Positions 22,885-27,690 of a stretch of DNA of 27,818 nt are shown one piece after another (within the stretch, counting starts at the first letter, position 1; every line of letters starts with the position of its first letter). This DNA is from a virus: the IMG/VR virus record IMGVR_UViG_3300028196_000065, positions 1-27,818 of that record. One strand, 5' to 3'. The notes under the pieces were generated by a model that worked only from the letters and a program-made list of their open reading frames with translations, made no database searches and was not told the origin of the DNA. The position numbers and the translations under genes are program-made.

Positions 22885-22890
22885 TAAAAA

Positions 22891-22910
22891 AGAGAGGCTT
22901 TAACCTCTCT
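22891..22910. terminator. Hairpin terminator, best oriented for the minus-strand genes
   Basis: The arms are AGAGAGG and CCTCTCT with a 6-base loop. Read on the minus strand, the hairpin is followed at once by a run of six T residues, a classic intrinsic terminator for the 119/152/69-residue cassette. Read on the plus strand, it is followed by CAAAGAAAAA and would be weak. Confidence 0.8.
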
Positions 22911-22925
22911 CAAAGAAAAACTGTT

Positions 22926-22947
22926 AAGGGCGCTTTCGGGCGCCCTT
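22926..22947. terminator. GC-rich hairpin terminator after gp23
   Basis: The arms are AAGGGCGC and GCGCCCTT with loop TTTCGG, followed on the plus strand by TATTC after three T residues. It ends the gp67-gp23 head operon. On the minus strand it is followed by AACAGTTTTTC, so it may also stop leftward transcription just after the stop codon region of the 69-residue gene. Confidence 0.85.
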
Positions 22948-22950
22948 TAT

Positions 22951-23160
22951 TCAATCTAAGTTACAATTCCATTGTTCATTCACATAGAACGCTTCTAGTG
23001 TATTATCTTTACCGAATGGCGAGATAATTTTACATACTGGAGGATTAGTATCATCTTCCCGTACATCATATCGCATACTCATAGAACCTTCTACAATTTG
23101 ACAATCGTGGTGTGATGGCTTAACCATTGATCCAGTAAATCTAACTGTTACGACTTGCAT
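22951..23160 (-). CDS. Unknown 69-residue protein, last gene of the minus-strand cassette
   Basis: I do not recognise this protein. It is small, begins MQVVTVRFTGSMVKPSHHDC and looks beta-rich (RYDVREDD, CKIISPFGKDNTLEAFYVNE). It has three Cys, and two His near residue 17. The start is well supported: on the minus strand a perfect AGGAGG (plus-strand CCTCCT at 23167-23172) lies 6 bases before the ATG. The start overlaps the end of the 152-residue gene by 20 bases. The stop lies just before the convergent terminators. It may encode a small host-directed or regulatory protein, but only its position and promoter type suggest this. Confidence 0.75.
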   Translation of the reverse strand: MQVVTVRFTGSMVKPSHHDCQIVEGSMSMRYDVREDDTNPPVCKIISPFGKDNTLEAFYVNEQWNCNLD

Positions 23161-23599
23161 TATATACCTCCTGTTTTATTTCAATAATTTCTTTCATTTT
23201 TTCTTCCACTATGGATAATGTATCCGTCGATTTATCCCCAAAGCTGTAATCAACCAGTTCAAACGGATAGTCTATGTTGGTTTCAATATGTGGACGATCT
23301 CCCCGCAACTCTGCGATTTTTCTAAAGCTTGCGGGTATACCCAATTCTATTTCATCAGGCAAGAACCTCGGCCCAGGCACACTTTTCCATAACATAAAAT
23401 TTGTCCAATAATCTGGTTGGCACTGACGGCAGCAATCATTCCAACCCTCGACTATCCACCTATTGTACTTCTGACATTCAATTACGTGCAACCCATATTT
23501 ATGACAAAAGTTTTTAAACCATAAAAATGCACTTTCATCATTTGAAAAGACTCTGTTGTATTCTTTGTCAACAGTCTCAGTCTTTATCTCTTTCCACAT
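23141..23599 (-). CDS. Unknown 152-residue Cys-containing protein
   Basis: I do not recognise this protein. The start is placed at the ATG at 23599, which shares an A with the stop of the upstream gene (TAATG coupling). A longer open frame reaches 23650 but lies inside that gene. The N-terminal half is aromatic and Cys-rich: FLWFKNFCHKYGLHVIEC, then WNDCCRQCQPDYW at about 71-83. This arrangement could bind a metal ion or form a redox site, but no known zinc motif is clear. The middle has VPGPRFLPDEIELGIPASF. The C-terminus is a charged helix rich in Glu and Lys. It is the second of three genes on the minus strand. Confidence 0.75.
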   Translation of the reverse strand: MWKEIKTETVDKEYNRVFSNDESAFLWFKNFCHKYGLHVIECQKYNRWIVEGWNDCCRQCQPDYWTNFMLWKSVPGPRFLPDEIELGIPASFRKIAELRGDRPHIETNIDYPFELVDYSFGDKSTDTLSIVEEKMKEIIEIKQEVYNASRNS

Positions 23600-23958
23600 T
23601 AAGCAACTCCTCTTTTCATTTTCCAATTTTGGATTGTTTTGTTGTACCATTCTTCATTCTTATTACGCAGAATATCAAGAGGTGCGTGGCTTACTTCTAA
23701 ACCTTCTTCATTTCTTGCATCAACATATTCTTCAACAGTAAAAGACTTTACCAGTTCTGCAACAAATTTTGCTTTTGTGAATGGACCACCATACTTAAAT
23801 CGGGCTATAAAAAGGTCTTTGCCTTTGCCGACACGTGATGGATGAACATTTACGCCATTTTTTGAAACTGCTGGCCAAACTGGACGATCTGTATAATCTC
23901 CAGTGTAGTGAAGGTATCCACCGTAGTATGTGAAGTCTTTTTTGTTGAACTTAGTCAT
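23599..23958 (-). CDS. Conserved marine-phage hypothetical protein, 119 residues
   Basis: The function is unknown. The sequence style is familiar from hypothetical proteins of marine phages: KFNKKDFTYYGGYLHYTG, then LFIARFKYGGPFTKAKF, then FVAELVKSFTVEEYVDAR, then APLDILRNKNEEWYNKTI. It is basic and aromatic at the start and helical in the second half. The ribosome binding site on the minus strand is GAAAGGG about 7 bases before the ATG. It is the first gene of the cassette, about 35 bases downstream of a TTGACA/extended -10 promoter. No catalytic or membrane features are seen. Confidence 0.8.
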   Translation of the reverse strand: MTKFNKKDFTYYGGYLHYTGDYTDRPVWPAVSKNGVNVHPSRVGKGKDLFIARFKYGGPFTKAKFVAELVKSFTVEEYVDARNEEGLEVSHAPLDILRNKNEEWYNKTIQNWKMKRGVA

Positions 23959-24024: not shown

Positions 24025-24032
24025 TATAAATA
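24025..24032 (+). promoter_or_regulatory. T4-type late promoter upstream of the gp3-like gene
   Basis: This is an exact TATAAATA, ending 20 bases before the ATG at 24053, with ribosome binding site AAGGGG between. It points away from the minus-strand sigma70-type promoter, whose -35 box it nearly touches. Confidence 0.8.
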
Positions 24033-24569: not shown

Positions 24570-25016
24570 TTGCTAACACTTGAAAGCACTTTAGAAGAAT
24601 GGCAAACTGATTGTAAAATTGATGAAAATAACTTGGTAAGATCAACCGTAGAAATTGCAAAACTACATGCAAAATATTTACAAGTTTTGTCTATCAATAA
24701 ACTTCAATTAAAAAAATCTCAAATGAGACAACAAACACTTCTTTTGGAGAAGTGGAAATATTACAATGGCAAACTATCACAAGATGAAATTGAAGCTCAT
24801 GGATGGGAATATGACCCCTTTAATGGCATCAAAGTAATAAAAGGTGATATGAATCGCTATTATGATGCAGATATAGATATACAAAAAAGTGAAGAAAAAA
24901 TTGCATATTATAAAACTTTTGTAGAAACTTTGAGTGAGATTGTTGAAAACCTCAAATGGAAACACCAGTCGATAGGTAATATTATTAAATGGAAACAGTT
25001 TGAGGCTGGTGGATAA
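24570..25016 (+). CDS. uvsY: Recombination mediator UvsY
   Basis: This 148-residue protein (T4 UvsY is 137) helps load the UvsX recombinase onto single-stranded DNA coated with gp32. It is helical and basic, with a helix pair near 35-70, then YYNGKLSQDEIEAHGWEYDP, then a long helix, and ends KWKQFEAGG, matching the T4 ending AFEAGK. The start appears to be TTG: an in-frame TAA stands directly before it, GGAG at 24560-24563 lies 6 bases upstream, and the next in-frame Met is about 50 residues in. The ATG at 24558 is in frame with this gene but is followed within three codons by that TAA. It overlaps uvsW by TAATG. Confidence 0.9.
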   Translation: MLTLESTLEEWQTDCKIDENNLVRSTVEIAKLHAKYLQVLSINKLQLKKSQMRQQTLLLEKWKYYNGKLSQDEIEAHGWEYDPFNGIKVIKGDMNRYYDADIDIQKSEEKIAYYKTFVETLSEIVENLKWKHQSIGNIIKWKQFEAGG

Positions 25017-26521
25017 TGATTGAAAAGATTACAGTAGGTAAAAAGAATGAGAGTCAATTGCTAGTTGATGCTGATAGTGGCATCTTAATGGAATTGAATG
25101 AATATTTCTCATTTTTTGTTGACGGCTATAAGTACATGCCACTCTACCGAAACAAAGTTTGGGATGGCAAGATAAGAATATTCAATGCTTTAGCACAAGA
25201 ATTGCCTGTTGGTCTTTTACATCAACTTAAAGAGTTTACAAAAAAACGCGGTTATGAATTAGAATATGAAGATGGTGAATATGGATCACCAGAACAATAT
25301 AATGCTGTTGATCCAGAAGAAATAATGAAGTTTATTACCAGTCTTAATTTGAGAGGTAATGGTAATCCTATTACTGTAAGAGATTATCAATTCGATGCTA
25401 TCTGTACTGCAATTACAAATAAAAGATCAATATTATTATCTCCTACAGGTAGTGGTAAATCTTTAATAATTTATGTGTTACTACGTTGGTTACTTGAAAG
25501 GTGTGATGATAGAAAAATTCTGATCATTGTACCGACAACTTCATTGGTTGAACAGATGTATGCGGACTTTGCTGATTATTCATCTCATGATTCTTGGAAT
25601 GCCATACAAGAATGCCACAAAATATTTTCGGGTAAAGCAAAAGATATGGAAGAAAATGTTGTCATTTCAACTTGGCAGTCTGTATATAAACTGCCGCCGG
25701 CTTGGTTTCAACAATTCTACGGTGTTTTTGGAGATGAATGTCATGGATTCAAATCAAAATCATTAACTTCTATTATGAATAAATGTGTAAATACTGCATA
25801 TCGATACGGTACAACAGGCACACTTGATGGTACCCAAACACATAAACTTGTACTAGAAGGTCTTTTTGGCAAAGTAAGAAAAGTTACTACCACTAAAAAA
25901 TTGCAAGATGATGACACACTTGCGCCTCTTAATATTTTTATGCTAACTTTAGATTACAATGAAACAGATAAAAAAGAAAATGTAGGCAAAACATATCAAC
26001 AAGAGATTAATTGGATCGTAGCAAATGAGCGCAGAAATAATTTTATAAGAAATCTTTCAATTGATATGAAAGGTAACACTTTGGTATTATTTCAATTTGT
26101 TGACAAACATGGCAAAGTACTGTATGATCTAATTTCAGCTAAAGCCAAGGATAGTAGAAAGGTATTTTATGTCTCAGGTCAAACGGATGCTACAGACCGA
26201 GAAACTATAAGAAAAATTGTTGAAACACAAAAAGATTCTATTATTGTTGCCAGTCTTGGTACTTTTAGTACAGGTATAAATATAAAAAATCTACACAATA
26301 TAGTATTTGCATCTCCTAGTAAGTCTCAAATTAGAGTACTGCAAAGTATTGGTAGAAGCTTAAGGAAGAGTGATGATGGTCGTATAAGTAAACTATACGA
26401 TCTAGTTGATGATCTACAACACAAATCTAGAAAAAATTATACATTACTTCACGGTGAAGAAAGATTGAAGATATACCAAAAAGAGCAATTCCAGTATAAA
26501 GAGTATAGGATAAAGATATGA
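25016..26521 (+). CDS. uvsW: Superfamily 2 DNA/RNA helicase UvsW
   Basis: This 501-residue protein matches T4 UvsW (503), which unwinds branched DNA and R-loops and switches replication from origin- to recombination-driven initiation. An N-terminal DNA-binding region (1-110) includes YRNKVWDGKIRIFN. Motif I is SPTGSGKS at 142-149, motif II is DECH at 240-243, and motif III is TGT at 267-269. In the second RecA-like domain, VSGQTDATDRE is near 386, STGINI near 418, and motif VI QSIGRSLRKSD at 443-453. Its last bases overlap the next gene (ATGA). A TATAAATA inside the gene at 26275-26282 is probably only coding sequence (Gly-Ile-Asn-Ile). Confidence 0.96.
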   Translation: MIEKITVGKKNESQLLVDADSGILMELNEYFSFFVDGYKYMPLYRNKVWDGKIRIFNALAQELPVGLLHQLKEFTKKRGYELEYEDGEYGSPEQYNAVDPEEIMKFITSLNLRGNGNPITVRDYQFDAICTAITNKRSILLSPTGSGKSLIIYVLLRWLLERCDDRKILIIVPTTSLVEQMYADFADYSSHDSWNAIQECHKIFSGKAKDMEENVVISTWQSVYKLPPAWFQQFYGVFGDECHGFKSKSLTSIMNKCVNTAYRYGTTGTLDGTQTHKLVLEGLFGKVRKVTTTKKLQDDDTLAPLNIFMLTLDYNETDKKENVGKTYQQEINWIVANERRNNFIRNLSIDMKGNTLVLFQFVDKHGKVLYDLISAKAKDSRKVFYVSGQTDATDRETIRKIVETQKDSIIVASLGTFSTGINIKNLHNIVFASPSKSQIRVLQSIGRSLRKSDDGRISKLYDLVDDLQHKSRKNYTLLHGEERLKIYQKEQFQYKEYRIKI

Positions 26522-26973
26522 CTATAAGAAAAAATAATATTCTACAGTTAAAACTTACCAACGGTGAAGAAATTCTTTGTGAGATGATTGATATTCCCAA
26601 GGACCTATTGGAAGAAGAAATTGATGATGAATTTGAAGTAATTGTTAAAAATTGTCTTTGTATTACTAAAGTTAGAGTTTCAGAAAACAAACTATTTTGT
26701 ACACTTGATCCTTGGATTTCTTTTCAAGATGTTGATAAAAATAATATAGCTTCTTTAAATCCACAGCATATCATAGCAAAGTGTATTCCAAGTGAAGAAG
26801 TCATGGAACAGTATTTAAACGCTATAGAGCCTACAGAGATTTCTAGTCAAGATGATACTGAATATTTAGACGCATCTAATTGGATGGAAAGATTGGGGCT
26901 AAAAGAAAATCTAGTAGACATATATGATTCAGATCAAAATGTGATAAACTTTCCATCTGGAACTAAGCACTAG
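26518..26973 (+). CDS. Sm-like (Lsm fold) protein, candidate RNA-binding protein
   Basis: This 151-residue protein has a pattern like an Sm fold in its first 95 residues: LQLKLTNGEEILCEMIDI (helix-free start, then Gly-Glu turn), a variable middle, KLFCTLDPWISFQD, and LNPQHIIAKCIPSEEVMEQY, where a final strand leads into a helix. Sm-like proteins of probable cyanophage origin are known from structural work, as I recall, and usually form rings. The last 55 residues are acidic and probably flexible (WMERLGLKENLVDIYDSDQ). It overlaps uvsW by ATGA. A role in RNA or late regulation next to gp55 is a guess. Confidence 0.55.
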   Translation: MTIRKNNILQLKLTNGEEILCEMIDIPKDLLEEEIDDEFEVIVKNCLCITKVRVSENKLFCTLDPWISFQDVDKNNIASLNPQHIIAKCIPSEEVMEQYLNAIEPTEISSQDDTEYLDASNWMERLGLKENLVDIYDSDQNVINFPSGTKH

Positions 26974-26993
26974 TTACTACCCCACTCACTAAG

Positions 26994-27018
26994 AAGAATC
27001 TTATTATAACAGATTCTT
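26994..27018. other. 8-bp hairpin after the Sm-like gene
   Basis: The arms AAGAATCT (26994-27001) and AGATTCTT (27011-27018) enclose a 9-base AT-rich loop. No U-tract follows on the plus strand, so a terminator role is doubtful. The loop contains the -10 box of the leftward promoter, so the repeat may be a protein-binding site instead. Confidence 0.4.
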
Positions 27019-27030
27019 AAGATTTGTCAA
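27003..27030 (-). promoter_or_regulatory. Perfect consensus sigma70 promoter pointing left (antisense)
   Basis: On the minus strand TTGACA (27030-27025) and TATAAT (27008-27003) are 16 bases apart, all twelve positions matching consensus. No minus-strand gene follows for about 3 kb, so a transcript would be antisense to the Sm-like gene and uvsW. It stands back to back with the gp55 promoter. Confidence 0.65.
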
Positions 27031-27051
27031 CCCATAAAATACGGTTGACAA
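27024..27051. repeat. 9-bp inverted repeat joining the two divergent -35 boxes
   Basis: TTGTCAACC at 27024-27032 is the exact reverse complement of GGTTGACAA at 27043-27051, with 10 bases between. Each arm contains one -35 hexamer. The symmetry could be an operator for a dimeric regulator or simply the result of two facing promoters. Confidence 0.85.
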
Positions 27052-27073
27052 GAAATAAAATATGTGATATAAT
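27045..27073 (+). promoter_or_regulatory. Perfect consensus sigma70 promoter of gp55
   Basis: TTGACA (27045-27050), a 17-base spacer and TATAAT (27068-27073) match the bacterial consensus at all twelve positions. Transcription would start near 27080, just before AAGGAG at 27086-27091. The phage thus seems to have its late sigma made early, by unmodified host polymerase. Confidence 0.9.
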
Positions 27074-27096
27074 GTATGTATTATGAAGGAGTGATT

Positions 27097-27690
27097 ATGG
27101 CAAAAAAGAAATCTAAGAGTACCCATTATGTGGATAATAAAGAATTTTCTCAAAATATAGTGGAATATGTAAAAACAATTAATATAGCTAGAGAAAATGA
27201 AGAAGCTTTGCCTATAGTTCCTAACTATTTGGCAGAATGTTTTTTGAAAATTGCAGAGAATCTATCGCATAAATCTAATTTCATTAGATATACTTACCGT
27301 GAAGAAATGGTAATGGATGCGGTAGAAAACTGTTTAAAAGCTGTTGAAAATTATAATATCAATGCAGCTACACGTTCAGGTAATCCAAATGCATTTGCTT
27401 ATTTCACTCAAATAATTTGGTATGCATTTTTAAGAAGAATTGCAAAAGAAAAACGCCAACAAGATATAAAAGAAAAATATTTATCGCAATCAGGTATAGA
27501 AGCATTTCTTGTAACCGAACAAGGAGAAGCTGCAACTGGAGTTGCTACACATTTCATTGATGTTCTAAAAGATAGAATAGACAAGGTAAAAGAGACAGAT
27601 ACTTCTATAAAAGAATTTTCTAAAAAAGAAAAGCAACGAAAGAAAAGAACCGTTAATGTTGATTCTGATTTGAAAGACTTTTTAATATGA
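27097..27690 (+). CDS. 55: Late transcription sigma factor gp55
   Basis: This 197-residue protein (T4 gp55 is 185) replaces the host sigma factor on RNA polymerase and recognises the TATAAATA late promoters, five of which lie in this window. A basic N-terminus (AKKKSKSTHYVDNKEF) is followed by NYLAECFLKIAENLSHKSNF near 45, then YREEMVMDAVENCLKAVENY, corresponding to the sigma region 2 core, and FAYFTQIIWYAFLRRIAKEK, the aromatic segment that contacts the -10 element. The C-terminus is basic and ends in Leu-Lys-Asp-Phe-Leu-Ile-like residues (DSDLKDFLI), as expected for the clamp-binding tail that contacts gp45. The start is the ATG at 27097 with AAGGAG 5 bases upstream. An ATG at 27076 lies before the transcript start. 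Confidence 0.93.
   Translation: MAKKKSKSTHYVDNKEFSQNIVEYVKTINIARENEEALPIVPNYLAECFLKIAENLSHKSNFIRYTYREEMVMDAVENCLKAVENYNINAATRSGNPNAFAYFTQIIWYAFLRRIAKEKRQQDIKEKYLSQSGIEAFLVTEQGEAATGVATHFIDVLKDRIDKVKETDTSIKEFSKKEKQRKKRTVNVDSDLKDFLI

Follow-up and report, generated by a model that had tools for sequence, protein, structure and literature searches.

What is served by a consensus promoter that points away from the gene beside it and has no gene of its own nearby? The question is raised by a 27,818-nucleotide IMG/VR fragment of a T4-like phage (the whole stretch is hereafter called the window), in which two perfect sigma70-type promoters stand back to back in front of the gene for gp55, the late sigma factor (27097..27690, plus strand; PHROG 234, E=1.1e-51), whose start codon, an ATG at 27097, is preceded by the Shine-Dalgarno sequence AAGGAG. 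To the left lies a block of genes on the same strand headed by a late-type promoter (TATAAATA, 24025..24032, plus strand), in the order gp3-like, uvsY, uvsW and an Sm-like gene; the promoter element and gp55 follow. The uvsW helicase gene (25016..26521, plus strand) is identified by its UvsW_N domain (PF21241). The last gene of the late block (26518..26973, plus strand), called Sm-like in the original prediction, corresponds to T4-like GC139 and has weak matches to PHROG 471 and 527 and no Pfam match; its other label, 'methylamine utilization', comes from one weak PHROG match and looks unreliable. The closest annotated genome is that of Phage C48C1 (Kyanoviridae), where the gene order is as in the window. 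The same order is found in HTVC008M, Syn9, S-PM2 and Sinorhizobium phage phiM12, some of which carry small insertions, and a late-type TATAAATA promoter occupies the equivalent position in C48C1 and in two further genomes (G001 and G002). A blastn search of the 600-base region against phages gave no match.

Both promoters agree base for base with what had been claimed for them. The leftward promoter (27003..27030, minus strand) consists of TTGACA at 27030-27025, a 16-nt spacer and TATAAT at 27008-27003, and from its position transcription is predicted to start near 26996. The rightward promoter, the early promoter of gp55 (27045..27073, plus strand), has TTGACA at 27045-27050, a 17-nt spacer and TATAAT at 27068-27073, with a predicted start near 27080. 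In each case TG precedes the -10 box. Both score 12/12, and the runner-up site in the 17.8 kb scanned scores 11/12. Under a first-order Markov model 0.07 perfect promoters are expected in the whole window and three are observed. For a given perfect promoter, the probability of an opposed perfect partner with 0-40 bp between the -35 boxes is about 6e-5. Judged by its sequence, the leftward promoter is a genuine sigma70-type early promoter. The third perfect TTGACA-17-TATAAT of the window is also on the minus strand (8198-8170), where it lies antisense within the first part of the gene for the terminase large subunit, and has no equivalent in the promoter count for the terminase of C48C1.

To investigate how widely this arrangement is kept, about 320 usable gp55 upstream regions of marine T4-like phages, collected in four gp55 scans of viral contigs, were compared. 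A divergent promoter pair (score of at least 20) is present in 89.7% of 320 regions, compared with 2.1% of shuffled sequences. Of 302 scored regions, 96% have a rightward member of 10 points or more, and its spacer is 17 nt in 96%, consistent with the proposal that it would start gp55 early. A leftward promoter of at least 10/12 lies just beyond a stop codon in 283 of the 320 regions, and many of the remaining contigs are short. For example, it is a perfect 12/12 in the isolates HTVC008M and Sinorhizobium phage phiM12 and is also present in Syn9, S-PM2, Syn1 and C48C1; the leftward element is absent from Acidovorax phage ACP17. In three near relatives, whose gp55 is 95-97% identical, the left spacer varies, while the leftward leader, the two promoters and the palindrome that joins them are invariant. 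Conservation of the left arm and left -10 box in relatives had been named as decisive for the original prediction, and the leftward promoter proves to be strongly conserved.

The position of the leftward promoter is equally informative. In about 42 loci an inserted gene separates gp55 from the Sm-like gene; the leftward promoter, usually perfect, is then 500-900 bp away from gp55 and still immediately follows the Sm-like stop codon. Some 29 other loci carry an extra gene on the late side, and here the element remains beside gp55. Because it mostly stays at the uvsW/Sm-like end when a gene enters in front of gp55, the leftward promoter is an autonomous element, and the back-to-back arrangement is dispensable. 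In whole-genome counts (at least 11/12) it is the sole intergenic antisense-facing promoter in C48C1, G001 and G003; in G004 it is accompanied by two more, and in G002 it scores 12/12 but falls within a short minus-strand ORF. It can be described as an old, stand-alone promoter kept across marine T4 relatives, and that it is conserved and antisense to the late uvsW block is close to certain. As a side observation, the gene that separates the element from gp55 in about 40 loci (L198, L200, L347, L212, L217, L218 and others) shows no strong promoter of its own beside the leftward promoter, often begins with a conserved GFTxSxFDLL and appears nucleotidyltransferase-like by eye.

It had been proposed that a regulator binds the palindrome between the promoters and silences both together, timing the early-to-late switch. 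The palindrome itself, TTGTCAACC-N10-GGTTGACAA (27024..27051), was verified: its arms (27024-27032 and 27043-27051) form an exact 9-bp inverted repeat embedding both -35 boxes, with 10 nt between them. Six of the nine pairs follow of necessity from the identity of the two -35 boxes, which leaves only three flanking pairs as extra. The arrangement resembles lambda-type divergent promoters with a shared operator in that back-to-back promoters are joined by a palindrome, and the repeat is perfect in the window and in the three near relatives. In contrast to a lambda-type switch, there is no conserved operator, no fixed spacing and no obligate pairing of the promoters in relatives. Of the features proposed for comparison in related phages, both hexamer pairs and the palindrome, the promoters hold and the exact palindrome does not: just 9 of 248 loci have it. 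The gap between the -35 boxes ranges from -16 bp (Syn9, where the two promoters overlap) to about 87 bp, quite apart from the insertion loci that place hundreds of base pairs between the promoters. Some support for a common regulator could be seen in the gap sizes, which group near -16, 5, 14, 25, 35, 44, 55 and 66 bp; steps of 10 bp gave p ~0.05 in a jitter test on independent sister pairs, and gap changes of at least 8 bp gave p 0.02 with a cut-off picked after seeing the data. This hints at helical phasing, with both boxes on one face of the helix, and is suggestive only. The leftward -35 box is TTGACA, TTTACA or TGTACA depending on the lineage, and the other promoters of the same genome use the same types. 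Since the -35 type is a genome-wide property, the likeness of the arms belongs to the whole promoter set of the phage, not to a local operator, which also accounts for the covariation of the two arms, a sign of an operator that was considered and rejected. Without a conserved operator at a fixed spacing to both promoters, the shared switch was likewise rejected as very improbable; the palindrome is simply two -35 boxes.

The leftward promoter had also been described as lacking a gene to serve and as antisense to the Sm-like gene and uvsW. The Sm-like gene is directly antisense to the expected RNA, and uvsW would be so if the RNA is longer than 0.5 kb. An alternative is that the promoter drives leftward genes further on. 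Between gp23 and gp3 the window contains a minus-strand cassette (22951-23958) of three small ORFs of unknown function, followed by two strong minus-strand terminators (22890-22947); the corresponding place in phiM12 is also occupied by a set of leftward genes. In phiM12 a small annotated leftward ORF with a Shine-Dalgarno-like stretch (L367:5833-5985) lies directly downstream of the perfect leftward promoter, possibly the one instance of a gene served by this promoter. The cassette and its terminators, together with the phiM12 ORF, are what can be said for this alternative. Against it, a candidate promoter belonging to the cassette itself lies at 24077-24048 (10/12), and C48C1, G001, G002 and L005 retain the leftward promoter with no leftward ORF for 5-12 kb (none within 12 kb in the first three). 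Service to distant leftward genes is consequently very unlikely, and the absence of a nearby gene holds as originally described. A short RNA ended by a leftward terminator was rejected as well: minus-strand terminators are not in excess over the control (8 vs 9 in 260 loci). The features expected of a cis-antisense RNA are represented by an antisense-facing promoter with no gene of its own, and a defined 3' end or terminator is missing.

The DNA beyond the leftward -10 box carries a further feature. In the window, an inverted repeat abuts the -10 (26991..27002; AAGA-ttct-TCTT on the minus strand), covering approximately -6 to +6 of the leftward start. Perfect stems of at least 5 bp occur at this position in 23% of 75 distinct leaders, compared with 1% of shuffles and with none at 107 gp55 promoters or at 84 other promoters. 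The arms are unrelated among lineages but complementary within each (e.g., CATAT/ATATG, AAGGC/GCCTT, AACTG/CAGTT and CAGGA/TCCTG). An RNA hairpin at the leftward 5' end was considered and rejected: although the arms covary, the 5' one precedes the predicted start, the enriched stems are perfect Watson-Crick ones and not those with G-U pairs, and RNAalifold gives no consensus for either strand. Because of the position of the 5' arm, the repeat reads as a feature of the DNA and not as a hairpin of the leftward transcript. The remaining leader, up to the Sm-like stop codon (26974..26990, minus strand), holds a GC clump (CCCCACTC on the plus strand, GAGTGGGG on the minus strand) and then a GTA/TATAC-like stretch that is found in relatives; at the upstream gene's stop codon the conservation tails off. 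G exceeds C over the initial 50 nt of the leftward RNA in 88% of 136 loci. The G run of the leader is on the opposite strand in one clade (L229, L327 and L249, at the Sm-like/gp55 boundary), where the GC clump is G-rich on the plus strand, not C-rich, and the rest of the element is unchanged; this flip excludes a G-rich, R-loop-forming leader as a universal rule. A small leftward ORF using the purine run as its Shine-Dalgarno sequence was rejected for want of a conserved start codon. The leftward RNA is not a known Rfam RNA: there was no gathering-level match in 10 relatives, and the sub-threshold matches were chance ones elsewhere in the window.

In a further possible role, the opposed promoter and the inverted repeat would halt rightward late polymerases before they enter the early block, by collision or with the repeat plus AUUAUA acting as a weak terminator. 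The element does lie exactly at the end of the late block, the repeat often adjoins the -10 box, and a strict scan of 1.5 kb in 260 loci found no plus-strand intrinsic terminator. The repeat arms, however, are often AT-only with a mean fold energy of only about -1 kcal/mol, RNAalifold returned no consensus structure on either strand, and a barrier could do without a perfect sigma70 consensus. A transcription barrier, by either means, is therefore unlikely.

We propose instead that two independent early promoters of the host sigma70 type meet at the uvsW-gp55 boundary. The rightward one would start gp55 and the replication-gene block. The leftward one, just beyond the stop codon that closes the late gp3-uvsY-uvsW-Sm block, would produce a non-coding RNA antisense to that block, and we infer that this RNA is made, and made early. 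Its main job, of which we are less sure than of its being made, may be that of a cis-acting origin transcript like that of T4 oriF, which could prime leading-strand synthesis toward uvsW; late transcription would then shut the leftward promoter off, and UvsW would remove the R-loops. In T4, the oriF promoter RNA forms R-loops that are unwound by UvsW, which is made late (PMC3016281). The whole chain from conserved antisense promoter to oriF-like origin transcript is the leading explanation, offered tentatively and with rather less than even confidence. Somewhat more tentative still is the proposal that the consensus early promoter fixed behind the uvsW operon, together with the inverted repeat next to it, constitutes an unreported origin of marine T4-like phages (cyanophages, pelagiphages and relatives); equally tentative is its reading as the positional equivalent of T4 oriF, although uvsY has moved away.

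The comparison with T4 oriF (ori uvsY) is mixed. T4 oriF lies 0.9 kb beyond uvsW and fires back toward it, and the marine promoter has the same placement and direction; this likeness supports an origin, as does the excess of G over C early in the leftward RNA, while the strand flip of the G run in one clade counts against it. In T4 the promoter is a middle one, depends on MotA, also yields uvsY mRNA and comes with an AT-rich unwinding element, whereas the marine element is a consensus sigma70 promoter, has no such AT-rich element and has uvsY upstream of uvsW on the other strand. No AT-rich stretch was found downstream of the leftward promoter (AT 0.659 vs 0.646), nor a MotA-type box at it, a sigma70 -35 box standing in its place; motA is absent from cyanomyoviruses (PMC2984593). 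Since an unwinding element and MotA dependence were both looked for and not found, the element is not classed as an oriF-type origin, though it may function in the same way. T4 oriE is similar in that it is believed to need a promoter of the early type (PMC3016281), but it lies in a different place and RepEB is implicated in T4. GC skew shows no reversal at gp55 in C48C1, Syn9, G001 or G002, a weak test for recombination-dependent replication of the T4 type. One review gives a single theta origin as predicted for Syn9 (PMC2984593).

The main rival to an origin transcript is antisense restraint of the late uvsW operon. Early leftward transcription might pair or collide with early read-through of the gp3-uvsY-uvsW-Sm block, a possible role that we hold to be doubtful, and the same doubt applies to the suggestion that it keeps UvsW, which would destroy origin R-loops, unmade before late transcription starts. 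The leftward promoter always faces the late block with uvsW, and this block begins at the late-type TATAAATA in the window as in C48C1, G001 and G002. There is also a precedent in CfrI, a non-coding cis-antisense RNA that lies opposite phage genes in the T4-like cyanophage S-PM2 (PMC2984593, PMC5931967), the leftward RNA here being a predicted one. Unlike the leftward element, which sits at the uvsW-gp55 boundary in most lineages, CfrI is located at psbA and a homing endonuclease gene. Restraint is weakened by the immediately antisense genes, which vary by lineage (the extra late-side gene noted above), and by the end of conservation at the stop codon, which means that no particular target duplex is conserved.

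CfrI is the only antisense RNA of T4-like cyanophages in the literature searched (PMC2984593, PMC5931967). That literature, mostly without subscription papers and the Syn9 transcriptome paper, holds no report of the element, of mapped origins or of an RNA at the uvsW-gp55 boundary. T4-like marine phages rank with the most abundant phages of the ocean. An antisense promoter that is near-universal, stands alone and keeps to one fixed place offers a single-base, testable target in Syn9, S-PM2, HTVC008M and phiM12, whether it proves to be a replication start or a general device holding the late block down. With the other early sigma70 promoters of cyanomyoviruses and pelagiphages it shares its hexamers, the 17-nt spacer and the genome-wide -35 types; it differs from them in facing antisense from an intergenic site and in the inverted repeat that abuts its -10 box.
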